A DNA stretch of 64,000 bases from a virus, in IMG/VR virus record IMGVR_UViG_3300020166_001048, positions 1 through 64,000 of that record. One strand, 5' to 3'. Below are positions 15,408 through 53,256 of this stretch, piece after piece. The notes under the pieces are model-generated. The model searched no databases, was not told the origin of the DNA, and worked only from the letters and a program-made list of their open reading frames with translations. Made by a program: the position numbers and the translations under genes. The stretch's first letter is position 1. Each line of letters opens with the position of its first letter.

Positions 15408-15420
15408 GTATTGTAACGTT

Positions 15421-15733: not shown

Positions 15734-15742
15734 GTTTTATTT
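15706..15742 (+). terminator. Terminator of the tmRNA
   Basis: Perfect 8-bp stem GAGAGTGT/ACACTCTC (15706-15713, 15726-15733) with a 12-nt loop, then GTTTTATTTT. Confidence 0.85.
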
Positions 15743-15855
15743 TACTACAAAATCGCTGGATTTTGCATTTTTACGAGTTACATCTATATAATTAATACGT
15801 TGGGCAAAAGAGAATCCCGCCCACAAAAAAATCATTAATTATGAGGAAATTTAAA

Positions 15856-33364: not shown

Positions 33365-34389
33365 GTAAAGTAAGTAGTTACACCAGCTGGCAACCATTGG
33401 AAGAAGTTATTGTTGGTCGTGCATACACACCTGACTATTTTGACTTTATCGACGATGCACAAGTGCGTAACCAGCTGCAACAAATTTTAGCAGAAACAAA
33501 TGAAGACTTGGACAACTTGCAAAAGACTTGTGAAGAATATGGTGCTGTTGTAAAACGCCCTGGCTTACCCGATAAAGACAATTTCCAAGGAGGCCAAGTC
33601 GCTGACGGCGGTGGCGCACCGTTGCCTCCGCTTACACCACGTGACTGGCAAATTAGCTTAGGCGACAAACTGCTGAGAGTGTTGCCAGTCGACGAATTAA
33701 ATGATATTTGTGCCGAATACGGAGATCAAGTTATTAACCCACACGGCGAAACATGGGACCCTGATTGTATTTTAAATGGTTCTAGTGCTAGTTGTATTGT
33801 ACGTGTTGGGCGTGACGTATTCTTCGACAACAGCGAGTATTTACAACCACATCAAACTAAATGGATTGTAGAGAATGTACTAGGTCCAGAATATCGTGTA
33901 CACGAAGCAATCACAGACGGACACGGAGATGCTGTATTTGCCATTCTCAAACCAGGTGTTATTCTTTCAAGCAAGTGGGATGATCAACTCAACTTAGCCG
34001 AAGACTTTCCGGGATGGGACGTTTGTAAGATATGGGATAGTAGTATCTGGGCCGCAATGGAAGTTGGCAAGTTTAAAGAGGAAAACTTCAACGGCTCATG
34101 GTATGTTCAAGGGCAAACCCCAACCCAAGAATTCAGTAACTTTGTTGACCAGTATCTCAGTAAATGGGTTGGCTTTGTCAGCGACACAGTGTTTGATGTT
34201 AACTGCCTTGTGTTAGACGAAGAGAATGTTGTCTTTAGTGCGTACAATAAAGAAGTATTTGATTATTGCGCCAAGCACAAAATCAATCCTATTATTAGCG
34301 AACTGCGTCATAGTTATTTCTGGGATGGCGGTATTAGTTGTTGCACACAAGACATTAGGCGCAAAGGTGGGTTAGAAGAATATCTATGA
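33361..34389 (+). CDS. Amidinotransferase-family enzyme (copy 2)
   Basis: 342 residues. LEEVIVGRAY at the N-terminus, PLTPRDW, His in DGHGDAVF and Cys in GISCCTQDIRRKG are the catalytic landmarks of arginine amidinotransferases. It would convert an amine on a sugar or amino acid into a guanidine. Its neighbours (GT, radical SAM) point to a modified-sugar substrate. Two extra copies (9693, 37449) suggest more than one acceptor. Confidence 0.8.
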   Translation: MSKVSSYTSWQPLEEVIVGRAYTPDYFDFIDDAQVRNQLQQILAETNEDLDNLQKTCEEYGAVVKRPGLPDKDNFQGGQVADGGGAPLPPLTPRDWQISLGDKLLRVLPVDELNDICAEYGDQVINPHGETWDPDCILNGSSASCIVRVGRDVFFDNSEYLQPHQTKWIVENVLGPEYRVHEAITDGHGDAVFAILKPGVILSSKWDDQLNLAEDFPGWDVCKIWDSSIWAAMEVGKFKEENFNGSWYVQGQTPTQEFSNFVDQYLSKWVGFVSDTVFDVNCLVLDEENVVFSAYNKEVFDYCAKHKINPIISELRHSYFWDGGISCCTQDIRRKGGLEEYL

Positions 34390-35645
34390 ATGATATAGAT
34401 AAAATATACAAAGAACTTGGTGAGGGTATATGCCTTTTTCCATTCATTGGCGGGTTTTATTCAACAGTTGATGCAAAGTCACGTGGAGATAACCGAGTTA
34501 TCCTTAACAGAATAACACCTTGCTGCGTATGGCAGAACGGTATAGACAATTCATGGTATGAAGTCCAAGAAGGCGCAACTATTGCTGAAACACGTAACAG
34601 CGATGGTTATCGACGTATTAGAGAAATGTTTCTTGCTGGTAAGTGGAAAGACATACCTGGCTGTAATTCGTGCCATATTGCTGAACAATATAGCAATAGT
34701 TCGACACGCATTGTTAACAACGAATACTTTGCCGAAAACATCGAAGAAGACATTATTGCATTAGTTAAAGAAATACAAGCAAACAATTTTACAAGCAACA
34801 CCATTAAACACTTAGATTATTTCCCTAGCAATTATTGTGATTACGAATGTGTAATGTGCTTCGGTGGAGCTAGTTCAAAACGCAATACATTTGAAATAAA
34901 ACACAAGAGCAGCGAACAAAGCATTGTATTAAATGATGTTGATAGTGATTTTTATGATGTACTAACAAATGTTGACATAATTGGATTTACAGGTGGTGAA
35001 ACTATTATGCAAAAACAAGTGCACGAGTTAATTGATTATTTAATTGAAAAAGATTTAGCAAAAAACATCACCATTCATATACTAACCAATGCTAGTCAGT
35101 ATCCAGAAAATTTTGTTAACAAGATTAAAGCATTTAAAAAAGTAGCGTATACTATTAGTATTGATGGCACAGGTGATATAATTGAATACCAGCGCCGCGG
35201 TGCAAAATGGAATACTGTGCAAGACGTTGCAAGAAAAATTAAAAAAACTGCACACTTGCACAATTTTGTTAACTATGTATTGACCAGCATGAATGTACTA
35301 AATGCAATGGAATGGATTGACTGGATGCATGATAATAACTTTGAAATGTTTGCAGTTAGCCCGGTACACAGAGCAGATCATTTAAGTCTATTGGCATTAC
35401 CCGAAGAAATGAAAGCAACTGCATTAAATCGCTTGCGAAATGGTAGAAAACGTTACCAGCATTATATGCCAGACCGCGACGAGTACCGTTATGTCCGCGG
35501 CATTGATCAAATTATACAAACAATCGAGCAAGCAACGTTTGATCCTGTACAGTTACAAAAGTTTGTCGAGTTTATAGAAGTTGAAAACCGTGTTAGCAGA
35601 AAGCCACTGCACGAAATTGTACCAGAATGGGCACCTTACTTTTAA
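34386..35645 (+). CDS. Radical SAM with N-terminal SPASM/twitch-like domain (rSAM-1)
   Basis: 419 residues. N-terminal cysteines C16, C46-C47, C93 and C96 make a SPASM-like auxiliary cluster site; the radical SAM motif is C151-x3-C155-x2-C158, with FTGGET as SAM-binding GGE and IDGTGD later. The auxiliary domain precedes the barrel, the reverse of most SPASM enzymes. Only plus-strand member of the eight. Its 3' end overlaps the SufT-like gene by 4 nt. Confidence 0.85.
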   Translation: MNDIDKIYKELGEGICLFPFIGGFYSTVDAKSRGDNRVILNRITPCCVWQNGIDNSWYEVQEGATIAETRNSDGYRRIREMFLAGKWKDIPGCNSCHIAEQYSNSSTRIVNNEYFAENIEEDIIALVKEIQANNFTSNTIKHLDYFPSNYCDYECVMCFGGASSKRNTFEIKHKSSEQSIVLNDVDSDFYDVLTNVDIIGFTGGETIMQKQVHELIDYLIEKDLAKNITIHILTNASQYPENFVNKIKAFKKVAYTISIDGTGDIIEYQRRGAKWNTVQDVARKIKKTAHLHNFVNYVLTSMNVLNAMEWIDWMHDNNFEMFAVSPVHRADHLSLLALPEEMKATALNRLRNGRKRYQHYMPDRDEYRYVRGIDQIIQTIEQATFDPVQLQKFVEFIEVENRVSRKPLHEIVPEWAPYF

Positions 35646-35941
35646 ATCCAACCCATTAGGATTTTAGTATCGTCGGGAACCATATCTAGGCTAAACGGTG
35701 GATCAAACACTAGTTGCCTGTCCACAGTTTCAACACCGTCGACACCTTGCACTGCTTCGTCGATGTCATTGCAAATTTGATCTGCAAAAGGGCACATCAT
35801 GCTAGTAAGTGTGTGTTCCACTATGCAATGTGATCCGGTTATTTCAATGTTGTAAATTAATCCCAAATCAAATACATTAATTGCAACTTCTGGATCGTGC
35901 ACTTGTCGTAGTGCATCTTCTACTTTTTCAACTAACTGCAC
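35642..35941 (-). CDS. SufT/MIP18-family (DUF59) Fe-S assembly protein
   Basis: 99 residues. DPEVAINVFDLGLIYNIEI is the DUF59 hallmark, and TLTSMMCPFADQI carries the conserved Cys near residue 49. SufT/PaaD-like proteins help load Fe-S clusters on client enzymes. It overlaps the carbamoyltransferase by 10 nt; the radical SAM proteins around it are the likely clients. Confidence 0.85.
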   Translation of the reverse strand: MQLVEKVEDALRQVHDPEVAINVFDLGLIYNIEITGSHCIVEHTLTSMMCPFADQICNDIDEAVQGVDGVETVDRQLVFDPPFSLDMVPDDTKILMGWI

Positions 35942-37449
35942 ACTGTAACTCCGTATTCTTTTTCAAATCTGTCTGCATCTGCTCTGTCGTCAACCATTGG
36001 TTCGCCGCGAATGTTCAACGATGTGTTTAGCAACATTGGGCACCCTGTTTCTTTGAACCAAGCTTCTAATAATTGTCTAATGCCACTACCGTCGTCGGGT
36101 ACTGTTTGCACTCTTGCTGTACCGTCTACGTGTGTAATAGCAGGAAACTGGTCCGGATGTTTAACTGGCGCTACTACCTGCATGTAATGCGATGTGTTTT
36201 GATTTTTTGGCATATCAAAATAATCGTGTACATGTTCTTCAAGTATTACTGGTGCAAAAGGACGAAATTTTTGCCGCCTTTTTATTTCATTTACTTTGTC
36301 TTTAATTTCAGGCCCACGTGGATCAGCAAGTAAACTTCTGTTTCCAAGAGCACGTGGACCAAACTCGGCTTTACCACTTGCTACTCCTACTATTTTTTTA
36401 GTCTTTAATTGTTTAATCAATTTCTTTACTGGATACTTACCCGGAATATCAGTGCCCAGTAATGCTGTGTGCCAGTTGACTTTTTTGCCATATGCTAGTG
36501 CCGCAGCACCTAAACTACTACCTGCATCTCCCGGGTTGGGCATGATCCATATGTTGTCAAAAATATCACCCAACTTGCTGTTTGCTACGCAATTAAGTGC
36601 AACACCGCCCATATAAACAAGATTGTCCGAACCTGTTAATTCTTTAGCCTTGTGCATCACTTGCATAATCAACTCTTCACAAAGTTGCTGCCCTGCGGCT
36701 GCGATATCCATTTCGTCAACGCCTGCAGGAAACTCCAAGTCTTGCATGCCAATGTGTAAGTTTCTTTTAAATTTTGCCATTGATGTGTCGTCTATTAGAT
36801 TATCAACCAACGTGCAGTATGCCTTTGTTGCATCGCCATATGCTGCCATGCCCATTGTGATGTATTCTTCATCCATTGGGCGCAAGCCTACACGCTGCGT
36901 AACAGCACTATAGTACATGCCGATGCTGTTAGGATACTGCTGACACCAAACACGCTTGTATTGGGCCTGTCTGTGCTTCTTATACCCCAAGTAACCAGTG
37001 GTAGCATCGTCGTATCTAGCTTTGTAAATGCTGATAGTATCTATTTCGCCGATTGCATCAATTACAACAACAGCGGCTTCGTCGTAAGGCGATGTTTGAA
37101 ATCCACCAGCAGCGTGACTCATGTGATGCCCAACATTGGTTATAGCACCTTTGTGTTCTGACATTATTATCGGAATTGTATTTTTAAGTTCTGACTTTAG
37201 TCGCCAGTTACCACCCCAGGGTTCACCGCTGAGAAATTTACGCAACTGCCGTTTCCACGGTTTTTCATAGTATACAATTTTATCAAATGGGCCGTGTGCA
37301 AGGGCTGCCATCTCAAGTTCTAGGCAAATATTATTATCGTTTTTCTGTTTACTGTAACGCTCACTATGGCCAGCAAATACAATTTCGTCATCATGCAACA
37401 CAGTTAATGCTGCATCATGAAATCCTGCACTAACTCCTAGTATTTTCAT
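35932..37449 (-). CDS. NodU/TobZ/CmcH-family carbamoyltransferase
   Basis: 505 residues. MKILGVSAGFHDAALTVL starts the N-terminal ASKHA-like domain, NVGHHMSHAAGGF holds metal-binding histidines, and ALGNRSLLADPRGPE with KFRPFAPVI and NTSLNIRGEPMV complete the family pattern. Transfers carbamoyl from carbamoyl-phosphate through carbamoyl-adenylate to a sugar hydroxyl (nodulation factors, tobramycin, cephamycin). Here a glycan or aminoglycoside-like acceptor is likely. Confidence 0.92.
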   Translation of the reverse strand: MKILGVSAGFHDAALTVLHDDEIVFAGHSERYSKQKNDNNICLELEMAALAHGPFDKIVYYEKPWKRQLRKFLSGEPWGGNWRLKSELKNTIPIIMSEHKGAITNVGHHMSHAAGGFQTSPYDEAAVVVIDAIGEIDTISIYKARYDDATTGYLGYKKHRQAQYKRVWCQQYPNSIGMYYSAVTQRVGLRPMDEEYITMGMAAYGDATKAYCTLVDNLIDDTSMAKFKRNLHIGMQDLEFPAGVDEMDIAAAGQQLCEELIMQVMHKAKELTGSDNLVYMGGVALNCVANSKLGDIFDNIWIMPNPGDAGSSLGAAALAYGKKVNWHTALLGTDIPGKYPVKKLIKQLKTKKIVGVASGKAEFGPRALGNRSLLADPRGPEIKDKVNEIKRRQKFRPFAPVILEEHVHDYFDMPKNQNTSHYMQVVAPVKHPDQFPAITHVDGTARVQTVPDDGSGIRQLLEAWFKETGCPMLLNTSLNIRGEPMVDDRADADRFEKEYGVTVCS

Positions 37450-38483
37450 TAAACGTCATCTTCTCTGTAGTACACACCATTATCTCCCCGTTGAGGAAAT
37501 AAGTCTGTACTTTGATCATCTTCTCTGTGTATATCCAATGTTAAACAATGCCAACCACCGTCAAAGAAACTTCGTGGACGAAAATCAAATGTGTGCACAG
37601 CAATTCCTCGACGGTCAAGCCATTCGGTGAGCGGAGGATGATCTTTCATACAAACTATATTTTTTTCATCGAGTACCAACATGTTAACTTCAAATACTGT
37701 TTCATGAAATTCACCTATCCAATCGCTGGCATCGTCTTCAATCCACTTTTCAAATTTTTTACTATTATCATGCTTGCCCGGCACAGACCAGTTTTTGGGT
37801 TGATGAAAATTAAAATTGTTAAGTTCTTCAGGAATATGGAATACTTCCCAATTTGGAAAACTTGTACTATAATTTGTTTTCCAATGACTACTCGCAATTA
37901 CGTTTGGTGCAACAGGCGTAAACACACCATCACTATGTCCACCTGTGCTGCATATATTTACTCTATATTTTTTTGCCAATTCGACCATTGCTTCGCAACA
38001 GTATCCCCACATACCTTCATGCGGTTCTGGATCAATGTAAATGTCTTTTCCCATTCTTACCACTGCAGGCGGATTAAAACAATTTATTGGTGCATCAACG
38101 GGTGTTTGTACATCGTATCCTAATGCCTTGTACTCGTCCATGACATGGTGCCAGCGATCAAACGGTAATTCGTTATTATGATGCAATGAGTAAAGAGTCT
38201 TGTCAAGAACAATATAATGATCTCTCGGAGTAATTGGGGGCTTAACTAGTAAGCCACTCTTGCCAAGATGATGGTCAATTGAATCGAATTGTGGCCTGCG
38301 TACCTTGATGCCTCTACCTTCTAAAAACTTTTGTAGTTTGCCTGTGTCTTCCTTGCACCATTGTGTAATTTGACATAGTGGATCTGCTACTTCGTTGGGA
38401 AGATAATCGTAATAACTTTCAGGATATGTATCTCCTAGCCAAACTTCTTTTAATGGAGTAAATCCAAAGTTACTGTTAATCAT
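37449..38483 (-). CDS. Amidinotransferase-family enzyme (copy 3)
   Basis: 344 residues. Start at 38483 (MINSNFGFTPLKEVWLGD) because this is where homology to copy 2 begins and it overlaps the metK stop by 8 nt. PPITPRDH, His in STGGHSDGVF and Cys in GGWHCLTLDIHRED are conserved. It lies between the carbamoyltransferase and metK. Possibly guanidinylates an amino group on the same product that is carbamoylated. Confidence 0.8.
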   Translation of the reverse strand: MINSNFGFTPLKEVWLGDTYPESYYDYLPNEVADPLCQITQWCKEDTGKLQKFLEGRGIKVRRPQFDSIDHHLGKSGLLVKPPITPRDHYIVLDKTLYSLHHNNELPFDRWHHVMDEYKALGYDVQTPVDAPINCFNPPAVVRMGKDIYIDPEPHEGMWGYCCEAMVELAKKYRVNICSTGGHSDGVFTPVAPNVIASSHWKTNYSTSFPNWEVFHIPEELNNFNFHQPKNWSVPGKHDNSKKFEKWIEDDASDWIGEFHETVFEVNMLVLDEKNIVCMKDHPPLTEWLDRRGIAVHTFDFRPRSFFDGGWHCLTLDIHREDDQSTDLFPQRGDNGVYYREDDV

Positions 38484-39570
38484 TTTCCCAACCAATCTTT
38501 TCCCACGGTACATCTTTGTCACCAAAGTGCCCATATGTACAATTTTTACTGTAGTTAGTATAGTTGAACAAATCAAATCTGTCAATGATTCCTTTTGGAC
38601 TCATATCAATGTTTTCTTTAATAAACTTTTCAATACTGCGATTGTGCCCATTGCTATCAATATACACACTTGTTGGTGCCTTAACACCAATAGCATACGA
38701 CAACTGAATGTTACACCAGTCTGCCATATCATCTGCTACTACATTTTTGGCGATCCACCTAGCCATGTATGCAGCACTTCTATCAACTTTTGTGGGATCT
38801 TTGCCACTAAAAGCACCGCCGCCGTGAGGAGCAAACCCGCCATAAGTATCAACGATAATCTTACGTCCAGTAATGCCAGCGTCACCATCAGGCCCGCCAA
38901 TAACAAAATTCCCAGTGGGATTAATATGCCACGTAGTATTTTCATCAATTAAATCTCCCAAAGCATGATTCGCGGCGCCTCTTGCAATCATTCTTGCTGT
39001 TTCAATTTCGCCGGCTGCATGTTGTGTACTAATAACAATTTGATCTGCACGTTTAGCTATACCGCCTTCATACTGTATACTAACCTGTGATTTTGCGTCA
39101 GGGCCTAATATGTTATCTAATAATCGAACTTCTTTTAATTCTTTTAAAACTTCGTGCGCATAGTAGATAGGCGCTGGCAAGTATGCCGAATTATCATTAC
39201 ACGCATATCCAAACATAATACCTTGATCGCCTGCTCCAAAGTCGTCTGTTCCTAGTGCAATGTCTGCACTTTGACTGTGGATTTCATTGTAAATGTTTAG
39301 TTTATCCCAATGAAACCCTTCTTGCTCATAGCCAATTTCTCGAACCTTGTTACGCACAATTTCTTTAACTTCATCCTGGCTTACATTAAAGTTTTTTACT
39401 TCACCGGCTAATGTTACGTGATTGGTAGTTACAAGTGTTTCAACAGCAACACGAGTTGTTTCATCGCCTGCCTTTAGTCCTGCATCAACTAGCGCATCGG
39501 AGATTTGGTCTGCGACCTTGTCAGGGTGCCCTTCACTAACACTTTCGCTTGTAAAAATATAATTATTCAT
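38476..39570 (-). CDS. metK: S-adenosylmethionine synthetase
   Basis: 364 residues, close to the bacterial length. SEGHPDKVADQISDA at the N-terminus, GAGDQGIMFGYA in the centre and GGGAFSGKDPTKVDRSAAY towards the end are MetK signatures. It makes SAM from ATP and methionine; in this island eight radical SAM proteins would use it. Start overlaps the 40-residue gene upstream (ATGA). Confidence 0.95.
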   Translation of the reverse strand: MNNYIFTSESVSEGHPDKVADQISDALVDAGLKAGDETTRVAVETLVTTNHVTLAGEVKNFNVSQDEVKEIVRNKVREIGYEQEGFHWDKLNIYNEIHSQSADIALGTDDFGAGDQGIMFGYACNDNSAYLPAPIYYAHEVLKELKEVRLLDNILGPDAKSQVSIQYEGGIAKRADQIVISTQHAAGEIETARMIARGAANHALGDLIDENTTWHINPTGNFVIGGPDGDAGITGRKIIVDTYGGFAPHGGGAFSGKDPTKVDRSAAYMARWIAKNVVADDMADWCNIQLSYAIGVKAPTSVYIDSNGHNRSIEKFIKENIDMSPKGIIDRFDLFNYTNYSKNCTYGHFGDKDVPWEKIGWEND

Positions 39571-39689
39571 TTGTAAATAAATGGATCCCTTTTTCTGAGT
39601 TCCTTGAGTTTTTTACGATAACGGATTTCAAGTTTAATTTTGTTGATTAATCTTTTCGGCCAACTTAGTATTTTTTTAATTGTTTTCAT
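39567..39689 (-). CDS. 40-residue basic peptide before metK
   Basis: Starts in the stop of the 39686 gene and ends with ATGA on metK, so it is translationally linked on both sides. Strongly basic with Lys/Arg runs (MKTIKKILSWPKRLINKIKLE, shown in part), an amphipathic helix suited to membranes or nucleic acid. Function unknown. Confidence 0.65.
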   Translation of the reverse strand: MKTIKKILSWPKRLINKIKLEIRYRKKLKELRKRDPFIYK

Positions 39690-40744
39690 AGCAACGGTAC
39701 CTGTAATTCTTCGCTGTTACGCCAGGTATAATCGTACTCGGCGTATGCATTTGATGTGCGTATACTGTACACATCCAAATGCTGTGTTAATTTACTTAGT
39801 ATCTGATGAAAGTCGGTTGTTGAAAAGCTAGAATCTAAATCAACTTGAGCTACCTTTGGATGCCCAATTGTTAAACTTTTATCAGTGGGGTCAAAATTAT
39901 TGTCTACAAGCCATCCCCGAAAGGCGCTGAGGTGTTCTTGCATAAATGGCTGATTTAATGTATCTTTGCCCCACTCAATATCAAAGTCGCCCGCTGCTTC
40001 AGTTTGTGGCTTTAGTGATGTTGTAGTAAGCTCATCGACTCTGCTATCTCGTCCTTCGTCTTGGAATACTTCCCAGTGATGTTTTCCTACTGCCTTGTTA
40101 ACACCGACGTATACTCCACCTTTGTCACGTGCAATCGTATCAATTCCAAACAGTTCATAATCTTCCTCGTCGAGAATAAATCGTGGCGCATTCAACCAAC
40201 ACATAACATTACTAGGACGAATCCAATCTGGTGCATGTTGTTTTTTACGTAGACTTAATATGAGACTCTCTGCTTCGTGGCATAACAAATTCAATTGTCG
40301 AATATACCAACGAGTCTTAGGATCTGCTGCAAGGTAATGCGGTGACATCCTCCCGCTTTCACCTTGTGTCTCTTCAAAGTACAAGTGCAATTGATTAAAC
40401 TTGTCGTGATTGATGCCCAATGTTTCGCCATGTCCATTGTGTTCCTCTGGCTCAACTACATTGTCTATTGTAAAATGATCATCAATGTAATAATCAATAC
40501 TGCTATCATTGATGCCTTTAATTGTTGCATTAATCTGATTAACAAGTAATTGCAAATCACGTTCGCCATCAGGAAATCCAAAAAAGCAATAATTCTTTTC
40601 GAGATGGTAATTGTTATTAAGCAACCCTTCAAGTGCTGGTAGCCATTTACGGCTTAAACTATTATCATACACATCAATATACACAGGAAATAATTCTCCT
40701 GTAATATTATGTCTAAGTTTCATTTCAATTTTATCCAGCATCAA
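39686..40744 (-). CDS. 352-residue unknown protein of the island
   Basis: Starts MMLDKIEMKLRHNITGELFPVYIDVYDN, with later CFFGFPDGERDLQLLVNQIN and a Trp-rich acidic C-terminus. No cysteine cluster, Rossmann or P-loop motif. Coupled to rSAM-2 by a 14-nt overlap, so it may act on or with that enzyme. Not recognised. Confidence 0.65.
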   Translation of the reverse strand: MMLDKIEMKLRHNITGELFPVYIDVYDNSLSRKWLPALEGLLNNNYHLEKNYCFFGFPDGERDLQLLVNQINATIKGINDSSIDYYIDDHFTIDNVVEPEEHNGHGETLGINHDKFNQLHLYFEETQGESGRMSPHYLAADPKTRWYIRQLNLLCHEAESLILSLRKKQHAPDWIRPSNVMCWLNAPRFILDEEDYELFGIDTIARDKGGVYVGVNKAVGKHHWEVFQDEGRDSRVDELTTTSLKPQTEAAGDFDIEWGKDTLNQPFMQEHLSAFRGWLVDNNFDPTDKSLTIGHPKVAQVDLDSSFSTTDFHQILSKLTQHLDVYSIRTSNAYAEYDYTWRNSEELQVPLL

Positions 40745-42047
40745 TGCTATCCCACCATTTTAATATATCTGTGTCGGCACTGAGAATATCTCTCATGCAT
40801 AACTTGTTGTTGCGTATACTCTCAAGCGCAAGCATACGTCTTTTGCCTTTGCGCATACCTCTTTGGTATTCGTCTTCTGAGTACGTTTCTTCCATAGTTG
40901 GTCTGTTTTTTAATTGTAGTAACACGTTTTGTAATGCATTGCCGAGTTTGTTGTTTGTAATTAGTTCGTCTACTAACCTGTTTAATATTTCACGCGGCAA
41001 TGCCAATGGACTCATAATGATGTCTGGCGAAAATGTAAATATTACCTTGGCCAGAATATCAACATTGAGATCGTCTGCTAACTTTTGTATATTAACTACA
41101 TCCATCATACCCGGTAATGTAAGTGTAAAGTCTAAACGCATTTGTCGACGGTGTGTTGCAATTTCCAAACCTTGTTTGAAGTTGTTAACAAATACATCGT
41201 ATTTCAATCCTGTGCGTATGTATTCGCCTAAGGCGCCTGTGCCGTCCAAGCTTGCACACATTTGCCAATCACGTGTGTGTGCTAGTATGTCATGATATAA
41301 ATTTACACCTTTGTAATCAACTCTGCTGAGATTACTATTATACCTTGCATACAAGCGATGGGCATCACCTAATTCAACAATGCGTTTCATATAACGCCAG
41401 TGCTGTTCATACATAAGAGGCTCGCCGCCTACCCAGTAAATCTCTTCAACCCGGTGCTCTTCAACTGCTTCGCTAAATTCTTTTTCAATCTGTGTGTCTT
41501 GAAATTTTGTTATCTCTGCACGTACTTCTGGTAACATCCAATTGTTTTTAGGATTGGTTAGATCAGTCATGTTGTGCTTTTTTTGTTCTGTTTCCCAACT
41601 ACTACTCAACATATCACCGCATGTGCGACATTTAAAGTTACACAAATTACTAAAACGATAATCCCAACTAATAGGTTTCATTGTAGTATATCCACTGGCA
41701 TCAGTGTTTTCCCAAATGTCATTGTACTTGTGACGGAACATTCTTTCAAAGTAACTGCGATATACATCCGTGTTTAGCAACTGACTGTTGCACACATCAC
41801 ATTCAGGCAATGTTTCTCCAGCCATCATACGACGACGAACACTTTGCATATGTTCATTGTTCCAGTGTTCGTCTAGGCTCACTGGTTGATATTCGCCGCT
41901 ACCCGATTTAGTGTCAATATATTGTTCAAAGCTTTGTGCTTCTTCGCGACTTGCGCAGCACATACGCCGTTCAGTTTGCGGGCTTAGATACGTGTGTGTC
42001 CATGGTGCCATGCACAGGGTAGGTGGCTTGTTATCAGGTTTTTGCAT
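40731..42047 (-). CDS. Radical SAM with N-terminal SPASM/twitch-like domain (rSAM-2)
   Basis: 438 residues. Auxiliary cysteines C12 (in CMAPWTH), C30-C31, C83 and C86; radical SAM motif C136-x3-C140-x2-C143; VGGEPLM as GGE block and SLDGTG later. The CMxPW start is shared with rSAM-4 and rSAM-6. Abuts rSAM-3 by one nt. Confidence 0.85.
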   Translation of the reverse strand: MQKPDNKPPTLCMAPWTHTYLSPQTERRMCCASREEAQSFEQYIDTKSGSGEYQPVSLDEHWNNEHMQSVRRRMMAGETLPECDVCNSQLLNTDVYRSYFERMFRHKYNDIWENTDASGYTTMKPISWDYRFSNLCNFKCRTCGDMLSSSWETEQKKHNMTDLTNPKNNWMLPEVRAEITKFQDTQIEKEFSEAVEEHRVEEIYWVGGEPLMYEQHWRYMKRIVELGDAHRLYARYNSNLSRVDYKGVNLYHDILAHTRDWQMCASLDGTGALGEYIRTGLKYDVFVNNFKQGLEIATHRRQMRLDFTLTLPGMMDVVNIQKLADDLNVDILAKVIFTFSPDIIMSPLALPREILNRLVDELITNNKLGNALQNVLLQLKNRPTMEETYSEDEYQRGMRKGKRRMLALESIRNNKLCMRDILSADTDILKWWDSIDAG

Positions 42048-45282: not shown

Positions 45283-46658
45283 AAATCATACTTTCTAAAT
45301 TCGTCGATTAACCATGGAAACAACTCGCGCCAATCTGTTTTGCGTCTTGCATCTGTGTTTTTAAGATGGTTAAATAGCTTACCAATCTCTACTACATTTG
45401 GTTCATTGCTTTTACTTTGTTTTGCAATACCCAACAAATAGTTTTTACTTGAAATTTCTTCTGCTGTTTTTTCGGGTTTTAGTGCTAATGCTTTATCAAA
45501 GTCATCAGAAAAGATATCTCCAAATATATCAATAAACATGTAACTCGGGCCGTTCACACTGTTTTGATAATGATAAACAGTGCGTACCTTATTCCATTCT
45601 TGTATTTTGCTTAACAAGTCTGGCAATGTTTTCACAGTCAACGGCGTAACAGTTGAACTAATAATAAGATTAATCCAATCACACCCTAATAGATATTCAA
45701 AGTTTGTTTCCCATGTTGTTAAATTTAAAGGAAAACGTACATACTCTTGCTGTGGGCCCCAACAATCAAGACTTGCAGTCACTTCAAACTCCCTGAGGCA
45801 CCCTATATCTATTAAATGTTTAACACGATTTGTTACTTTTTTTACATAGTCAAGTTTTGCATTTAGATTTGTAAAGATTTGTAATTTCAATTCCGGGGCA
45901 GGATATTCTTCAAACAAGTCTAAACATTCTTCTAGCTCACTCTGATACAAAGGCTCGCCGCCTAATATATTAAAGTTAGTCAGGTACTGCCCGTTTACTT
46001 TTAACCAATCAAATAGCTTTTGTTTATTAGATTGCAAATTTGGATCTTTGACAAATGCTTTATCACCAAATCTAACATTTTCAGCGTTCCATAAACTGCT
46101 AAATTTTGGGCCACAATACAAGCACTTGAGATTACAAGTATTGTCAAAGTATATTTCAAGTGTCCTTGGTGTCACATGTGTTGCAATGGGATTATCATTT
46201 AGCTCAACTGGAGCATGCTGCCCAGGAAAGTCTAAGTTGGTAATCCTGTCACTTTGGCCGCCTGCTTTTTCAATGTTAATGCAATAGTTACATCCTATTT
46301 TTGGCCAGTTACCTTCTAACATCTGTTTACGATCATCAACTTTGCTTGGCGTATTATGAAAATCAAATTTGTCAATGTCAAACTTATGATGATTGGTTCT
46401 ATGACAACTAGCAGTTTCGCCGGTGGTTAGAAATACTGTGCTCCAATTCCATTTAAGCTGGCATGCAGTCGGTGTATTAATTGGAAATGGTTTATTAACG
46501 AGTTTGCTTTTGTGTTTAAACTGCTCTGTGCTATACCCATATAGATTGATGCATTCATCTTGAATATGTTGAGGTAACAATGCAAAGTCTGCTTCCTGCT
46601 TACACTCGGGCCAGCTTGGGTCCTTTATATCATCATAAAATTCTTCCCAGGTGCTCAT
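45279..46658 (-). CDS. Radical SAM, second subfamily (rSAM-5)
   Basis: 459 residues. Auxiliary cysteines C66 (ACQLKW), C85 (SCHRTNHH) and C123/C126 (CNYC); radical SAM motif C175-x3-C179-x2-C182; LGGEPLY follows. Here the CC pair is replaced by one Cys with neighbouring His, a trait shared with rSAM-7 and rSAM-8 and not with the others, so this is a distinct subfamily. Confidence 0.85.
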   Translation of the reverse strand: MSTWEEFYDDIKDPSWPECKQEADFALLPQHIQDECINLYGYSTEQFKHKSKLVNKPFPINTPTACQLKWNWSTVFLTTGETASCHRTNHHKFDIDKFDFHNTPSKVDDRKQMLEGNWPKIGCNYCINIEKAGGQSDRITNLDFPGQHAPVELNDNPIATHVTPRTLEIYFDNTCNLKCLYCGPKFSSLWNAENVRFGDKAFVKDPNLQSNKQKLFDWLKVNGQYLTNFNILGGEPLYQSELEECLDLFEEYPAPELKLQIFTNLNAKLDYVKKVTNRVKHLIDIGCLREFEVTASLDCWGPQQEYVRFPLNLTTWETNFEYLLGCDWINLIISSTVTPLTVKTLPDLLSKIQEWNKVRTVYHYQNSVNGPSYMFIDIFGDIFSDDFDKALALKPEKTAEEISSKNYLLGIAKQSKSNEPNVVEIGKLFNHLKNTDARRKTDWRELFPWLIDEFRKYDL

Positions 46659-47941
46659 ACTAATGCTCCTAACTCTGGAATCGCATCCAGTACGTTTTCT
46701 TTTCGTATGCCGTCGAGTCGATTGGTCTTCTGCCAGAACTTGTCCACCAGGTGTGTGTTGTCGGTGCTATCCATATATTGTAGCGCACTTTCAAATCCCA
46801 CTGTTGCTCTGTTCAGTTGATCCAATGGGCGCAGCCATTCCAGGTGTGCTTCGTACTTTTCTTTGATTTGATCTTTGTATGCTTGTGGCGCAATATCAAT
46901 GCGTAAATAGTCTGGATCTTGTAAAATATTTACGTTAAGGTCTTGTGGTTTTATCAAACCTTTTTCAACCCAATCTCTGTGAAAGTCAGGTAAGTGCAGG
47001 GCATTCATAATGCTTAATGTTGGACTAATATAAAAGTCGACGTTGGGGCATATTTCCATCATAGTACGTCTATTTTGTTCTACTTCTTCCCACTTGGTGC
47101 CTGTGCGAATGTATTCGCCGTGTGCACCCATGCCATCCAAGCTTGCACCTACAGCTACACTATCAAACTTTTTCCAGTAATCAAATACCAAACGGTCTTT
47201 TAATTTTGTTTTTGTAAAGTTTGTATTGTATATAAGACGCACGTCGAATCGGCCTCTGCGTTCTAATTCCTCAAGAATACGATAATGCTCGTCCATCATG
47301 CATGGCTCACCACCTGCAAAATATATCTGTTCTACATGATCTAGGTGCTCGTACAATTGCTCGATCATATCAGCTTCAAATCGACCTGCGTAGTTCATTG
47401 GCTTGTTTTCTTTAGCCCACCCAGGGCCTGCCAGTACACTTTGATCCTTGTACCAACTGCTACTAAAAATGTGCCCGCAACTGCGACAACTTAGGTTGCA
47501 CAAGTTGGAAAATCTGATGTCCCAGTATGTCATTTCAAAGTTGTCGTATTGCCCGTCTTCGTGCGTATTAAGTGCACGACCAATATGATGCCCGTGGTGC
47601 TTGTTTGCACTCTGGCGACCACTAAAAAATCCGCTTTTCTCTTGTTCGTAGCAACGCCCACACGCAGGGTTTTCTTGTTCTAACAACATGTCTTTGCGTA
47701 GTTGCTTTTGCTCTGGGCTATTCCAGATCTCTTCTATTGTGTTGTTTTTACAGTTTCCAACTTGACCAACACCCATTTCGGCATGACAACAAGGGTATGC
47801 TTCGCCTGTAGGATAAGCATGCAAGTGTATCCACGGGTACATACAAAATGTTTTACTTTCAGAAAGAAGTTCACGTTCTCTTTCACTTACATCTGCTAGC
47901 CTAATCTTAATTGGATCGGCACTGTTATAACTATAGCTCAT
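46655..47941 (-). CDS. Radical SAM with N-terminal SPASM/twitch-like domain (rSAM-6)
   Basis: 428 residues. C33 (FCMYPWIH), C51-C52, C94 and C97; radical SAM motif C148-x3-C152-x2-C155; AGGEPCM and SLDGMG. Closest in layout to rSAM-2. Overlaps rSAM-7 by 11 nt and rSAM-5 by 4 nt. Confidence 0.86.
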   Translation of the reverse strand: MSYSYNSADPIKIRLADVSERERELLSESKTFCMYPWIHLHAYPTGEAYPCCHAEMGVGQVGNCKNNTIEEIWNSPEQKQLRKDMLLEQENPACGRCYEQEKSGFFSGRQSANKHHGHHIGRALNTHEDGQYDNFEMTYWDIRFSNLCNLSCRSCGHIFSSSWYKDQSVLAGPGWAKENKPMNYAGRFEADMIEQLYEHLDHVEQIYFAGGEPCMMDEHYRILEELERRGRFDVRLIYNTNFTKTKLKDRLVFDYWKKFDSVAVGASLDGMGAHGEYIRTGTKWEEVEQNRRTMMEICPNVDFYISPTLSIMNALHLPDFHRDWVEKGLIKPQDLNVNILQDPDYLRIDIAPQAYKDQIKEKYEAHLEWLRPLDQLNRATVGFESALQYMDSTDNTHLVDKFWQKTNRLDGIRKENVLDAIPELGALV

Positions 47942-49283
47942 TGTACCAATCTTTCATGCTAGGAAATGCAGTAGCAAAGTCTTTACCTCTGCGCTTGTCG
48001 TACTGCGTATAAAAACGTTTAAAGTCGTTGTGTAGTTTTGGCATATCAAATGTGTCGCTGTGTGGTGTTTTAACAACATCAAGATAGTCAATCAATCGTT
48101 CAGTTTGGTTAATCTCATGTTCGTGTAATAATGTATTGTCTCTGTTTGTGTCTAGCCAATTCTGCAAACGATCTTTATGCAACATCCGAATTTCGTCCGG
48201 CAATACCAATGGGCTTTGGAAACTAGGAAAACGTAAAATGTTCAATGTAAAGCTTGGAAAATCTCTGCCATATGTTTGTTTAAATGTTAATAGATAATCT
48301 AAAAACTCAGGAAGTGTTTCTAAACACAATGCGTTGATTGTGCACATATTGTGCAACCCACGTATTTTACCCGAACTGGCCAACATGTGCATGTTTCGAT
48401 CCCAGGTTTCCCATTCTAGTCCGTCACGGATGTATTCTGCTTGTACTGGCATACTTTCATTTGATGTATAAATGTCCAGTGGCGCACTAGCAGCTCTGTC
48501 AAGCAATTTTTCCATGTCGGCAGTAGCAAGGCCTAAGTTACTGTTGATTGCAATTCGTGTGGTGCTTGCGCCTTTATTTTCTTTAAACCAGTCAAGCAAC
48601 TTCCACAAGTGGCCGCTCATTGCTGGTTCGCCACCTGTGATGCGCAATTCGTCGAGTGTTCTATGCAAGTCGCTTTCCCACCATTTAAAAAACGCTTCGA
48701 TGTATGGGTTTGTTTCGTTGTAAGTGTACAGTTGATTACTGTCATGTGTGTGCGTAAAATGATTGCGACCATCACTGATTAAATCTTCGTATGCACCGTG
48801 TTTTTTTAGATCTTTGACCCAGGTTGAACTAAATGCTGGATTGCAATAACTGCAAGCAAACTGACAAGTTCTATCAAATGCAATTTCCAATGTTTTAAGA
48901 TCAACATCTTCGTTATAATCCAGTGCATGTGCTGATTGCAAATCTTCATCTGAATAGATTACACTTTTATATGTTCTGTCGGATATATTGTCTCTGCCAA
49001 TGTCCTCAATCTTCCAGCAATATTCGCAACCTTTTGGCCGCTCGCCGCACTGCATTTGTTTACGCTCTTCTTTTTTACGAAGAGTGTTGTGCAATGCTTT
49101 TGGATTTGCTTGTACTTCTTCGACAGATATGTGATGAGGCAAAGGATGGTGGCAGCTAGTTGTCATACCCGATCCCAACCATATAGTAGCATTATACCAT
49201 TTAGCTCCGCACATACTAGAACTCAATGGATCAAGCACACGTTCTTTGTATTGTAGGTCAGTTTCGTTATTTTGCTTAGGCAT
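47931..49283 (-). CDS. Radical SAM, second subfamily (rSAM-7)
   Basis: 450 residues. C25 (MCGAKWYN), C44 (SCHHP), C86/C89 (CEYC); radical SAM motif C140-x3-C144-x2-C147; TGGEPAM follows. The C-terminus (HNDFKRFYTQYDKRRG) is shared with rSAM-8 (FTEHDRRRG). SCHHP and the following His-rich loop could bind a metal. Confidence 0.86.
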   Translation of the reverse strand: MPKQNNETDLQYKERVLDPLSSSMCGAKWYNATIWLGSGMTTSCHHPLPHHISVEEVQANPKALHNTLRKKEERKQMQCGERPKGCEYCWKIEDIGRDNISDRTYKSVIYSDEDLQSAHALDYNEDVDLKTLEIAFDRTCQFACSYCNPAFSSTWVKDLKKHGAYEDLISDGRNHFTHTHDSNQLYTYNETNPYIEAFFKWWESDLHRTLDELRITGGEPAMSGHLWKLLDWFKENKGASTTRIAINSNLGLATADMEKLLDRAASAPLDIYTSNESMPVQAEYIRDGLEWETWDRNMHMLASSGKIRGLHNMCTINALCLETLPEFLDYLLTFKQTYGRDFPSFTLNILRFPSFQSPLVLPDEIRMLHKDRLQNWLDTNRDNTLLHEHEINQTERLIDYLDVVKTPHSDTFDMPKLHNDFKRFYTQYDKRRGKDFATAFPSMKDWYNEL

Positions 49284-49947
49284 TAAAATATAACTCTTTG
49301 TTTAGTAGTTGATATTCAACAATCAGTTGTTTTATACTATTAGTAACCGGTTTATTCAAAATAGTTTCTAAACTATCTGTAAGTGACGAATTATCTAATC
49401 CAAAAATTGTTTTAAAATTTATAATATGGTTTACATTTTTACGATCTAGAGTATTATGCCAATTAATGGTATCCTTATTGAGTTGTTCATGCATTATATC
49501 AAATACATCTGGATGGTCAAGGTTACTAATATTATATGGAGGAAAGTTGCATCCTGTTGCTACCCACTTGTTGTATTCTTGCTGTGTCCAAAGATTTGGA
49601 AATCCTTTTTTTATAAACAACGTTGTTATGTGTTCAAAATCATCCTCGTCTGCGTCGATTGCAATCACTGTTATATTATTAAACATGGTTTGGAGTTTAC
49701 TTACAAAATCATGTTGATGTGTGTAATATATCTTCGCTGGCACACTCTGGTTTTCCCAATAATTTCCCATAAAACATACATCATCTTTGTTATTATTGTG
49801 TGCCCATACACCTCTATCACACCGATGGTAATCACCATGCGTAGCATCTATACGATTTGTTATCTGTATATCAAGCATCTTGGCAATTATTGTCGTAAGA
49901 AATAATCCACCACTTCCACTAACATGATGTATGCAGATTCTAGACAT
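49276..49947 (-). CDS. P-loop protein, sulfotransferase-like (tentative)
   Basis: 223 residues, very AT-rich. Begins MSRICIHHVSGSGGLFLTTI, where SGSGG could be a PAPS- or nucleotide-binding loop as in sulfotransferases, with later helix and FKTIFG segment. If so it would use PAPS made by the APS-kinase-like domain at 11.8 kb. The P-loop is not canonical, so nucleotide binding is a hypothesis. Confidence 0.4.
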   Translation of the reverse strand: MSRICIHHVSGSGGLFLTTIIAKMLDIQITNRIDATHGDYHRCDRGVWAHNNNKDDVCFMGNYWENQSVPAKIYYTHQHDFVSKLQTMFNNITVIAIDADEDDFEHITTLFIKKGFPNLWTQQEYNKWVATGCNFPPYNISNLDHPDVFDIMHEQLNKDTINWHNTLDRKNVNHIINFKTIFGLDNSSLTDSLETILNKPVTNSIKQLIVEYQLLNKELYFNA

Positions 49948-50983
49948 TGAAAATATTTTTCATCTTGTGTTTTTGTTCAGTACTAAATTCTTTTAGTCTA
50001 TGTTTATTATAACGCAAATCTGGTAACATGTCAAGATACATTTGTTCAAGTTCAGATTTTGGCATGTCCACTAAATGATGTATCACACTCATTAACGCAT
50101 CATGTTGTCCGGTGGTTTCAACTGGAATATGATCCCAATAATGATTGAATGTGCGGAAGCCTCTGTCTCTCAACCATTGATATGATCTTGGATTGCCGTG
50201 TACATGAAAAGGACGCAATCCTACCATTGGCTTCCAAATTTTTTCTGTCATAAACACAGGCTTCCATTCATCAAATTCAGTTTCGCTTACTACATTCAAA
50301 AAATGATTTTTCCATAGGTCAAGACGTCCAACAGTAACAAGATCATTGGGTACACCGGCATGGTCATCATGATCGCCTTGCGTTTGATTGTACGCTGCCG
50401 GGAGATCATCAATTGTCATTGGAACTACTTCCAGACCTTGTTGCCAATCTGTGCCGTCTTTTGCTGCGCCGCCTAGTGTGACAATACCACGTTCTAATAA
50501 ATGGGGGTTCTCACGCAAAATATTCGTAATTTCAATCCTGTGCCGTCTTGGTTTTCTTTGATATAACATGTATGCAAAATCAGCACTTTGCATTACTACT
50601 TGGTCTTCTGTGTACGCAGGCATACGATCGTTTGCAATCATGGCATGAAAGTTCCACTCCTTTGCTTCACCTTCGTACATGCCTATTCTGTGTACATTTT
50701 TAATTTTGTATTTGTTGATTATTTTTTGTAAATCTTCTGTGAAAAGATATTCAGGATCGATTACACATAGCAAAAATAAATTATCAAATTCACCTTCTAA
50801 ATTCATCGTTTGTTTCCAGCAATCGTTATCAAATTGACTGCCAAACCATGTTGTGTTAATTAAAAGATTTTTCTCATTCGGAAAACGTTGCTTAATTTGC
50901 ATTTCTGTGCTATCAATTATTTCCAACTCGTCTTTACCGTACGGCCAAGTCAACGGGAAGTGTGTCCCGATTCTTACAAGCAT
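49940..50983 (-). CDS. TEK-motif putative glycosyltransferase (copy 4)
   Basis: 347 residues. RRHRIEITNIL, VSETEFDEWKPVFMTEKIWKP (in part), RPFHVHGN and RGFRTFNHYWD follow the family. Overlaps the SDR gene by 10 nt and the P-loop gene by 8 nt. Confidence 0.58.
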   Translation of the reverse strand: MLVRIGTHFPLTWPYGKDELEIIDSTEMQIKQRFPNEKNLLINTTWFGSQFDNDCWKQTMNLEGEFDNLFLLCVIDPEYLFTEDLQKIINKYKIKNVHRIGMYEGEAKEWNFHAMIANDRMPAYTEDQVVMQSADFAYMLYQRKPRRHRIEITNILRENPHLLERGIVTLGGAAKDGTDWQQGLEVVPMTIDDLPAAYNQTQGDHDDHAGVPNDLVTVGRLDLWKNHFLNVVSETEFDEWKPVFMTEKIWKPMVGLRPFHVHGNPRSYQWLRDRGFRTFNHYWDHIPVETTGQHDALMSVIHHLVDMPKSELEQMYLDMLPDLRYNKHRLKEFSTEQKHKMKNIFNV

Positions 50984-51801
50984 TCTATCATTTTCCTTAT
51001 CCCGTGCTCCAATGGAGTATCACAGATTAGTCCCAAACTTTGCATTCTTTCAGTGCTACCAACCCTGTGGCCAGCACCTTCTGGTTCATTGGTTTGCGTT
51101 TTAACTGGTATTGTTACACCGTGCACTAGTTTGTAAACTATTTCGGCTACTTCTTTAAATGTAATTGCATTACCAGATGCAATGTTTACAGTAACTGGTT
51201 CTTCTCTATGCAACAAGTATTCAAATACTTTAAGTGCATCATCAATGTACACCCAGTCTCTTGTTTGTGTTCCGCTGCCCCACACACTACATTCTCCCTG
51301 GCGTGCTCTTTCTATTATAGCAGGCAATGGATAGTCCATGTCTTGTCCTGGACCGTATATGCTAAAAGGACGCATAACATGGACAGGAATGTCAAGTGTT
51401 TTTAGCATACCCTCTGCTACTAGTTTGGAGAGTCCATACAAGTCAAAGGTTTTTGAATTTCCAAACTGTTCTTCGTGCATTGGAGTATTCGGCGATTCTT
51501 GCAAGTGTGTTGGATATGCTGCACAACTACTAGGGTAAATGATCTTTTTACAAAACTCATCTGCCCACTTGAATGTTATTCTATCTATTTCTATATTTTC
51601 AGCAATACGCCATTTGTTATTGTCTATACCTTTACGCCCGCCCACAAAGGCTGCAAAATGATATAGACAATCAAAACGTTCATAAGGTAAATTGCGTCTT
51701 ACATCTTGTGTAAAGGGTGTAACATCATGCCCCTTTTCTTTAAGATACCTAACAGTATTCCTGCCAAGGAACCCGTCTGCGCCAGTGATTAATACTTTCA
51801 T
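50974..51801 (-). CDS. SDR sugar epimerase, GDP-fucose-synthase-like
   Basis: 275 residues. MKVLITGADGFLGRNTV is the Rossmann motif, YPSSCAAYP and YGLSKLVAEG give the Ser/Tyr/Lys triad (Tyr in YGLSK), and RPFSIYGPGQD is typical of NAD(P)-dependent epimerases/reductases of the GDP-fucose synthase and GDP-mannose group. A GDP-mannose source is suggested by the phosphomannomutase homologue at 7.6 kb. Confidence 0.85.
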   Translation of the reverse strand: MKVLITGADGFLGRNTVRYLKEKGHDVTPFTQDVRRNLPYERFDCLYHFAAFVGGRKGIDNNKWRIAENIEIDRITFKWADEFCKKIIYPSSCAAYPTHLQESPNTPMHEEQFGNSKTFDLYGLSKLVAEGMLKTLDIPVHVMRPFSIYGPGQDMDYPLPAIIERARQGECSVWGSGTQTRDWVYIDDALKVFEYLLHREEPVTVNIASGNAITFKEVAEIVYKLVHGVTIPVKTQTNEPEGAGHRVGSTERMQSLGLICDTPLEHGIRKMIECL

Positions 51802-51813
51802 ACAAATATGTAT

Positions 51814-53256
51814 CTATTTTAAGTTGCTGGCTGCATATTTACACTCGGCCCACCAGTCAGCCATTTCGGGGAATGTTTTTAAAAAGTCTGTTCCGCGCCG
51901 GCGATCGTGCTCAGTAAAGAACTTATAGAAGTCTGCTTTATTGCGATTAACGTACTCAGTGGATAGTTTTTGTCCATTGCGCATCCACGCAATATCTCTG
52001 TCTAATCGGTTAACTTCATAGTCTTTAAATCCGTGAAACCGAGTGGCTTCAGTTTCTAGATTGTCCAACATCCAAGACTTAATATTTTCAAGTTCATACA
52101 CATAGCTCTCAGGCAACAGTTGCAGGCTTTGCCAAGAAGGTGTGCGCAGCACAGGTGTATCAAACCACACTCGTTGATACGTTGTACTATATGCTTGCCT
52201 TAGTTCAAGTATAGAAACAAACAATTTGTGTAGAGTAGTTACACTTAGATTGCTCATTGTTATGATAAATGTAACACTGTTACGTTCCGGAATGTCACGT
52301 AAAAATTGATGTACTCTATCCCACAACAAGTCAAAGTCGAGTCCATGGCGTACATATTCTACTTGCTCGAACATCCCATCCAAGCTTACATACTGCATAA
52401 AGTGTTCCACAGTGTCTGGTTGACTGCATATTTTTGAGACATACTTCTTGTACTTTTGCCACAGTTTTTCATCTACGCTAAAGTTTGATGTTGTGCTTAG
52501 ATGCAAGTCTGACTTGGGATTGGCCAGCACATGATCAAATACTCGATATGTATTTTTATCCATCAACGGTTCGCCACCAGTCATTCGGAAGTGCTCTAAA
52601 TCTGGATACAATGTGGGCCACCATTCCCAGAATGCATCGACATACGGATTGTGTTCTCTTGCAGGAATAGGTCTACGTTCACCAGCGAAATGTGCTGGAT
52701 GGTTGTGCGGTGTGCTAGTTGGCCATGCACCGTGTTTTTCTGTTTCAGCCATCCATGTTGAACTATACTGCGGCGAACAATAACTACAACTCAGATTGCA
52801 TGCGCTGTTAAAGTCTACTTCAACGTAACTAGGAGTAATGTCTTTGTCCCATGATGCGTTTGTTATTTTTTCAAAATCTTTCATTGCCCAAGGTTCGCCG
52901 CTGCGATAATGTCTATCACTTAGCTTTCCGTTGTCTTCCATAGCCCAGCAGTAATTACATTCAGTTGGGCGCACTCCTTCGAGCATCAACTTGCGTTGTT
53001 GTTTTTTATAATCTGTGTTGTGTAGCGCACTGGGATTTTTCTTAATAGCTTCTGCATCTGCTTTGTGCAATGGCGGATGATAACAACTATTGTTCATGCC
53101 AGTTGTTAAATGTAAACTAAGTTGTTTCCACTTAGCTAAACACATACTAGGACTTACTGTGTCTAACTTCTGTTGTGCTTGTTCAGCATCAGTGAGAAAA
53201 TTACTTTTAAAATTTTCATCAACGCCATCACCTTTGTTTTGTTTAGTATTTGTCAT
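51814..53256 (-). CDS. Radical SAM, second subfamily (rSAM-8)
   Basis: 480 residues with start at 53256 (a start at 53271 is possible; both overlap the upstream gene). C39 (MCLAKWKQ), C58 (SCYHPP), C100/C103 (CNYC); radical SAM motif C153-x3-C157-x2-C160; TGGEPLM and SLDGMF. Closest to rSAM-7, so the pair probably arose by duplication. Confidence 0.85.
   Translation of the reverse strand: MTNTKQNKGDGVDENFKSNFLTDAEQAQQKLDTVSPSMCLAKWKQLSLHLTTGMNNSCYHPPLHKADAEAIKKNPSALHNTDYKKQQRKLMLEGVRPTECNYCWAMEDNGKLSDRHYRSGEPWAMKDFEKITNASWDKDITPSYVEVDFNSACNLSCSYCSPQYSSTWMAETEKHGAWPTSTPHNHPAHFAGERRPIPAREHNPYVDAFWEWWPTLYPDLEHFRMTGGEPLMDKNTYRVFDHVLANPKSDLHLSTTSNFSVDEKLWQKYKKYVSKICSQPDTVEHFMQYVSLDGMFEQVEYVRHGLDFDLLWDRVHQFLRDIPERNSVTFIITMSNLSVTTLHKLFVSILELRQAYSTTYQRVWFDTPVLRTPSWQSLQLLPESYVYELENIKSWMLDNLETEATRFHGFKDYEVNRLDRDIAWMRNGQKLSTEYVNRNKADFYKFFTEHDRRRGTDFLKTFPEMADWWAECKYAASNLK

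Follow-up and report, generated by a model that had tools for sequence, protein, structure and literature searches.

An ordered set of five twitch-domain radical SAM enzymes in T4-like phages, with a possible role in glycan tailoring

A T4-like marine phage was found to carry a gene island built around five radical SAM enzymes whose order is conserved among related phages, and we favour with moderate confidence the reading that this island is a glycan-tailoring operon in which MetK, a nucleosidase and a SufT-like protein would act as boosters. The window, i.e., the whole stretch of DNA analysed, comprises positions 1 to 64,000 of the virus record IMGVR_UViG_3300020166_001048, whose 135,142 bases include T4-like capsid and tail genes, confirming its phage nature. 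A motif scan returned eight open reading frames with CX3CX2C and GGE motifs inside 34386-53271 (Table 1), seven of which share one dense minus-strand gene run with the MetK, nucleosidase and SufT genes. The first-pass annotation had described eight such radical SAM genes in about 19 kb, and all eight proved to be intact and to exceed the cut-off of a curated family model, NF033640; the three support genes that it had placed between them are likewise present, between or beside them. Its interpretation of the island as a whole is only partly supported, as set out below. A ninth NF033640 member is encoded at 87.6-89.1 kb of the same record, and a search for near DNA matches among sequenced phages returned none.

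Table 1. Features of the island, with positions in the window
Feature	Position	Strand	Class	Evidence and remarks
AmdT1, amidinotransferase	33361..34389	+		overlaps rSAM1 gene
rSAM1	34386..35645	+		NF033640 232 bits; convergent with operon
SufT/PaaD-type Fe-S assembly protein	35642..35941	-	accessory	PF01883 59.9 bits, cut-off 23.5; overlaps CarbT gene end
CarbT, TobZ/NodU-type carbamoyltransferase	35932..37449	-	core	PF16861 176 bits, PF02543 125 bits
AmdT2, amidinotransferase	37449..38486	-	accessory	start set at internal ATG
MetK, S-adenosylmethionine synthetase	38476..39570	-	accessory	TIGR01034 421 bits, cut-off 309
U39	39686..40735	-	core	alignment A2, many invariant columns; confident predicted fold
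rSAM2	40731..42047	-	core	NF033640 290 bits; clade support 1.0
rSAM3	42047..43132	-	variable	NF033640 189 bits; few orthologues
Cytidylyl/adenylyltransferase (HldE domain II / G3P cytidylyltransferase-like)	43095..43511	-	accessory	PF01467; rfaE_dom_II 81 bits, below cut-off
MTAN-like nucleosidase	43508..44083	-	accessory, clade-specific	PF01048 43 bits, cut-off 25
rSAM4	44080..45282	-	core	NF033640 333 bits
rSAM5	45279..46658	-	variable	NF033640 220 bits; few orthologues
rSAM6	46655..47941	-	core	NF033640 415 bits; nearest to family consensus
rSAM7	47931..49283	-	core	NF033640 291 bits; clade support 1.0
U49	49276..49947	-	accessory	no Pfam or PHROG match
GT49, putatively glycosyltransferase-like	49940..50983	-	accessory	sequence motif; no family match; variable presence
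NAD-dependent sugar epimerase/dehydratase	50974..51801	-	accessory	PF01370 110 bits
rSAM8	51814..53271	-	core	NF033640 313 bits; one tree clade including bacterial members
GT53, putatively glycosyltransferase-like	53243..54184	-	accessory	sequence motif; no Pfam match; variable in related loci
U54, GT-A-fold glycosyltransferase-like	54185..55111	-	core	conserved beside array; fold match

The eight enzymes, and the ninth in the record, belong to NCBIfam family NF033640 (N_Twi_rSAM, twitch domain-containing radical SAM protein), with which they have in common a radical SAM core and a putative N-terminal twitch domain, the presumed site of an auxiliary Fe-S cluster. All eight scored 188.8 to 415 bits against a curated cut-off of 170 bits and are therefore not a chance count of motifs. 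Only three of them passed the generic Pfam Radical_SAM cut-off. Across their alignment, C33, C52, C94 and C97 of the twitch domain, C148, C152 and C155, and G210-G211-E212 are invariant, and the N-terminal domain, which contains the four upstream cysteines, matches the BtrN twitch (E 0.0012). All 322 distinct core enzymes (322/322) likewise retain CX3CX2C and GGE, with four or more cysteines upstream, and on these residues the eight are predicted to be cluster-competent. The NF033640 model defines a subfamily without a stated function, whereas here it resolves into five distinct orthologous groups in a fixed array. A literature search returned no substrate or activity for any NF033640 member, and we know of none. 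Since peptide maturation is the role of many bacterial SPASM/twitch radical SAM enzymes (reviewed in PMC11002830) and the eight show weak matches to peptide maturase models, they could mature a peptide or protein in a RiPP-like or PQQ-like manner. However, none of the eight comes near any peptide-maturase cut-off, their best match is always NF033640 with the PqqE model absent among the matches listed, and the scanned cluster proteins contain no precursor-peptide-binding domain of the PqqD/RRE type in a dense operon that leaves no obvious precursor open reading frame, which makes peptide maturation quite unlikely.

The distribution of the array was investigated by searching viral contigs with single radical SAM proteins as queries, rSAM6 alone matching 98 stretches. 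The core, U54-rSAM8-7-6-4-2-U39-carbamoyltransferase, keeps one and the same order in 79 of the 80 viral loci (41 of the 42 that are complete), and the fixed-order five-enzyme set occurs in many T4-like phages, on contigs of up to 344 kb. rSAM1, which has zero orthologues in the 80 loci, is private to this phage among the loci compared. In the tree, each of the five core enzymes forms one clade that includes members from an array in the Bacteriovoracaceae genome of a predatory-type bacterium (L278), where homologues of all five lie in a single array. Two further candidates were rejected. U54 as a part of bacterial arrays was present in only one of nine bacterial genomes with arrays, on a contig that may be viral, and of the Vibrio phages K566 and K567, considered as carriers, K566 has five N_Twi-like genes and none of U39, U54, CarbT or the amidinotransferases in a 41-kb stretch.

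The three support genes are of recognisable type. MetK has both MAT signatures, GAGDQGIMFGY and GGGAFSGKD, as well as GHPDK. The nucleosidase passed only the cut-off of the broad family PF01048 (78 bits against PRK05634, cut-off 129); its catalytic positions E11, M128-E129 and D152, which we take to correspond to E12, M173-E174 and D197 of E. coli MTAN, are invariant in alignment A5. The third protein scored below all SufT/PaaD equivalog cut-offs (TIGR02945, 93 of 143 bits; TIGR03406, 72 of 203 bits), and we therefore name it no further than SufT/PaaD-type. The first-pass annotation had tied all three to the radical SAM genes. By its own criterion, the scattering of support genes in phages that lack these enzymes, the tie fails for MetK and SufT, both widespread in phages that do not have the array, and holds among support genes only for the nucleosidase, whose close relatives found in viral contigs are array-bound without exception (18/18). 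MetK was found in at least 373 viral contigs, and about 64 of the best 80 have no N_Twi radical SAM enzyme within 10 kb; SufT is encountered less often near the array than next to a carbamoyltransferase or on its own. At the genome level MetK showed no association with N_Twi genes, which long records matched for capsid carry no less often than MetK-bearing records do. A SufT-radical SAM linkage was likewise set aside as specific evidence: it looked strong in the clade, but of 36 phage contigs 9 have SufT adjoining CarbT, and most have it near neither CarbT nor radical SAM genes.

On the view that it covers each known bottleneck of radical SAM chemistry, the island had been read as a selected, self-sufficient pathway with MetK, nucleosidase and SufT as integral parts. 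All these genes do stand in one run here, with the close nucleosidase always in the array, and in three more groups (L129, G024, G061/G090) nucleosidases of other lineages stand within or next to N_Twi radical SAM genes. SufT is present in the array twice, occupying a second, different position in another lineage (L465, L469), and the slot between U39 and CarbT has taken MetK in one clade and a nucleosidase in another. Against this, most of the 48 long core-bearing records lack the support genes (nucleosidase in 14, MetK in 12, SufT in 6), in-array copies are almost confined to the sub-clade near this phage, MetK and SufT are mostly outside arrays, and phages of this kind commonly have a large N_Twi repertoire whether or not they carry MetK. 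We therefore consider self-sufficiency unlikely: the pathway seems able to run without support genes from the phage, and MetK, nucleosidase and SufT appear to be boosters added by one clade, as optional extras and not requirements. A second nucleosidase type pairs with the carbamoyltransferase without the array.

Large parts of the system have precedents, and the first-pass remark that no phage system of this kind had been described was overstated (PMC5332604; PMC7678222). Nishimura et al. (2017, PMC5332604) described a 183-kb T4-like genome, TARA_ERS488813_N000010, with 12 radical SAM genes and paaD, and related these to the Fe-S metabolism of phage proteins; going by the published description, this paaD encodes the same kind of protein as the SufT-like gene here, whereas that account does not mention metK, a nucleosidase, a core order or orthologous groups. 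VP_139 from Lake Baikal (2020), a T4-like phage with Methylophilaceae as predicted host, combines metK, a nucleosidase and radical SAM proteins, and a cytidylyltransferase was reported among the Baikal phage populations (PMC7678222). The likeness is one of gene content, and the authors assigned the radical SAM proteins to PQQ synthesis and the rest, together with methyltransferases, to a SAM cycle (PMC7678222). Extended to the present phage, this would mean that the SAM-related genes feed into the host's SAM metabolism at large and have no tie to the radical SAM array, as the wide occurrence of MetK without arrays would allow. In this clade, however, the SAM genes sit inside the array and overlap or abut their neighbours, and the scanned part of the record gave only one weak methyltransferase match, which leaves the radical SAM enzymes as the chief consumers of SAM encoded there; a host SAM cycle is accordingly unlikely. 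Marine pelagimyophages carry radical SAM gene cassettes in a hypervariable region (PMC7029224), for which the available part of that paper describes neither support genes nor an ordered five-enzyme set. 

The other core genes and their surroundings point towards sugars. The AlphaFold model of U54 (pLDDT 84.7) gave as top Foldseek matches a PBCV-1 capsid glycosyltransferase and sugar nucleotidyltransferases (E 1.6e-4, with modest TM of 0.3-0.45), its sequence having only chance matches in the PDB. U39 (pLDDT 88.6) matched the PDB neither in sequence nor in fold, and its relatives are uncharacterised phage proteins only. CarbT is related to TobZ, GdmN and novobiocin carbamoyltransferase in the PDB, and the amidinotransferase profile A4, with conserved H188, D190 and C327 (AmdT1 numbering), matches the structures of AGAT, SxtG and StrB1. 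The labels GT31/32/49/53/55/56 are motif-based glycosyltransferase calls without a family match; further sugar genes comprise epimerases, a PseC-like aminotransferase, a UDP-sugar dehydrogenase-like gene and the cytidylyltransferase, and a pyruvyl transferase is encoded elsewhere in the record. Aminoglycoside tailoring by BtrN, TobZ and StrB1 has the same classes, namely a twitch radical SAM enzyme, an O-carbamoyltransferase and an amidinotransferase, a likeness to the island at the level of enzyme class only.

A phage-type carbamoyltransferase is also known to make 5-carbamoyloxymethylcytosine (PMC8670742), and CarbT and the radical SAM enzymes might by analogy act on phage bases. That system pairs with PF00303 hydroxymethylases, and glycosyltransferases adjoin carbamoyltransferases in unmodified contigs (PMC8670742), as they do here. 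PF00303, the thymidylate-synthase family, had no match in this record or in 12 of the 16 relatives searched, which argues against hypermodification through hydroxymethyl-pyrimidines, and we regard DNA hypermodification as highly improbable.

In the glycan-tailoring reading, the five twitch radical SAM enzymes, together with U54, other glycosyltransferases, CarbT and U39, would assemble a sugar, or a molecule linked to one, and alter it chemically in the course of infection. Each core enzyme may carry out a different radical step on a nucleotide sugar or glycan, such as an epimerisation, a dehydrogenation or a deoxygenation, with carbamoyl groups supplied by CarbT and amidino groups by the amidinotransferases, and the product might decorate the virion or host surface. 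Mainly in this clade, MetK would raise the SAM supply and the nucleosidase would clear 5'-deoxyadenosine (or SAH), while the SufT-like protein may aid metal or Fe-S loading. Conservation of the core order, the GT-A-like U54 fold, a TobZ/NodU-type CarbT, StrB1/AGAT-type amidinotransferases and the sugar genes speak for a glycan; the weakness of the U54 fold match, the motif-based glycosyltransferase calls and the lack of obvious sugar genes beside the Bacteriovoracaceae array speak against it.

It is tempting to speculate, more tentatively, that an ordered five-enzyme set, co-inherited and present both in T4-like phages and on one or more Bacteriovoracaceae chromosomes, makes, with the carbamoyltransferase and the new-fold U39, an undescribed glycan or small molecule by successive radical steps, with certain phages providing the SAM for it themselves. 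Radical SAM enzymes are sensitive to oxygen and expensive to maintain, yet a fixed-order set of five is retained by many T4-like phages, which signals strong selection for its product. NF033640, a family with no stated function, gains a defined minimal set for expression from the conserved core together with the array in the bacterium. Once this core is distinguished from boosters particular to a clade, the self-sufficiency reading is corrected and the genes can be ranked for study.

The eight radical SAM genes that the first-pass annotation had picked out in this 135,142-base T4-like phage record proved real: eight ORFs hold CX3CX2C and GGE, and all eight products (rSAM1 to rSAM8) exceed the cut-off of NF033640, the curated family of twitch domain-containing radical SAM proteins (N_Twi), of which a ninth member lies near 88 kb of the record. 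Their N-terminal domain matches the BtrN twitch domain and contributes four of the seven cysteines that are invariant in the alignment of all eight enzymes; the other three belong to the radical SAM cluster motif. Ligands for clusters are therefore present in the enzymes. The genes for MetK, a PNP-family nucleosidase with the MTAN catalytic positions and a SufT-like PF01883 protein are equally genuine. The minus-strand genes of the island mostly abut or share a few bases with their neighbours, which suggests that they probably form one operon; rSAM1, on the opposite strand, shares bases with an amidinotransferase gene. Outside the island, the type of the phage-encoded tmRNA is a hint that the host, or the organism from which the gene came, was alphaproteobacterial.

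Coordinates of the features in the window and in compared loci
Feature	Location	Strand	Remark
Eight radical SAM ORFs	34386-53271		
rSAM1	34386-35645	+	
Minus-strand run	55111-35642	-	
QueE-like reading frame	551-1513	+	by eye (SVQGEG...FGCNFRC); no Pfam match
Third amidinotransferase-family gene	9681-10709	+	outside island; aligned with AmdT1 and AmdT2
Permuted tmRNA, alphaproteobacterial type	15361-15755	+	alpha_tmRNA 114.8 bits; ARAGORN tag ANANRAPAMAMAA
Bacteriovoracaceae MAG array	L278:6040-18036		single array of eight genes for twitch radical SAM enzymes
Vibrio phage K566 (isolated)	L190:19944-37341		five N_Twi-like radical SAM genes
Nucleosidase-carbamoyltransferase-SufT trio	L354:10001-12347		T4-like phage; radical SAM gene not nearby

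Scanning with the enzyme at 46655 (rSAM6), using, as in the other scans, patterns best at detecting close relatives, matched 98 viral stretches, and 80 loci were retained. The order U54, rSAM8, 7, 6, 4, 2, U39, CarbT (a TobZ/NodU-type carbamoyltransferase) is kept in 79 of these 80 loci, which include near-duplicate contigs and thus represent fewer independent lineages, and in 41 of the 42 holding all eight core genes. The variable genes are rSAM1, rSAM3 and rSAM5, with orthologue numbers assigned by best match to the window proteins and absences provisional, as the compared records are fragments or of uncertain completeness. All 322 distinct core-enzyme sequences retain the motifs. A tree built from 185 sequences resolves the core enzymes into five clades, one per enzyme, at support values of 0.84 to 1.0. 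All five clades contain members from a single Bacteriovoracaceae contig, L278, whose array has chromosomal-looking neighbours by eye (obg-like, lgt-like). Nine bacterial genomes, mostly Bdellovibrionota, each gave 5-22 matches to the N_Twi family. K566 is the best cultivable relative seen; the stretch searched holds none of the other core genes.

The annotation knew of no such phage system. Parts of it have been described: a T4-like genome carries 12 radical SAM genes and paaD (PMC5332604), a Baikal T4-like population combines metK, nucleosidase and radical SAM genes, read by its authors as a SAM cycle plus PQQ synthesis (PMC7678222), and the pelagimyophage hypervariable region holds radical SAM cassettes (PMC7029224). 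Of the five-enzyme core and its bacterial counterpart we found no account in the open-access papers searched, a scope that excludes most subscription papers and all preprints.

The proposal that the support genes belong to a linked, self-sufficient pathway holds up unevenly. Close relatives of the window nucleosidase lie inside the array in 18 of 18 contigs, whereas MetK and SufT-like genes lie mostly away from radical SAM genes in phages. MetK occurs in at least 373 viral stretches, and in about 16 of the best 80 a gene for an N_Twi enzyme lies no more than 10 kb away; SufT-like genes in 36 contigs adjoin CarbT in nine, lie inside an array in two and are mostly near neither. In L465 and L469 the SufT-like gene sits between U54 and rSAM8, a slot unlike that in the window. 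In other lineages the nucleosidases, which share 31-48% identity with one another, lie within an array (L129), between radical SAM genes (G024), about 1 kb from them (G061/G090) or away from them (G075, G006, G014, L362 and isolate C48C1, as annotated); the L354-type enzyme has CarbT as its partner, with no radical SAM genes near. Among 48 long core-bearing records, PF02773 (MetK) occurs in 12, PF01883 in 6 and PF01048 in 14, and the nucleosidase family is not clearly commoner with the core (14/48 versus 9/41 comparison records, at least one itself carrying the core). In-array copies of support genes are mainly limited to the sub-clade with rSAM6 at least 80% identical to that of the window. 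Given this distribution, the nucleosidase plausibly has a functional link to the array; for SufT the case is weaker, and for MetK such a link is not shown.

The remaining genes bear on function. U54 has a predicted GT-A-like fold, CarbT groups with TobZ, GdmN and the novobiocin enzyme, and the amidinotransferases group with AGAT, SxtG and StrB1; around the array lie epimerases and genes for a PseC-like aminotransferase, a sugar dehydrogenase-like protein and a cytidylyltransferase. U39 has a confident predicted fold with no counterpart found among solved structures, its only structural relatives being uncharacterised phage proteins. DNA modification by the carbamoylated-hydroxymethylcytosine route (PMC8670742) is disfavoured because PF00303 is absent from the record, and none of the island proteins scanned has an RRE/PqqD-like domain. 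Together with the sugar-gene setting, these absences lead us to favour glycan or nucleotide-sugar tailoring, which, as read from the gene content, has roughly an even chance of being what the island does.
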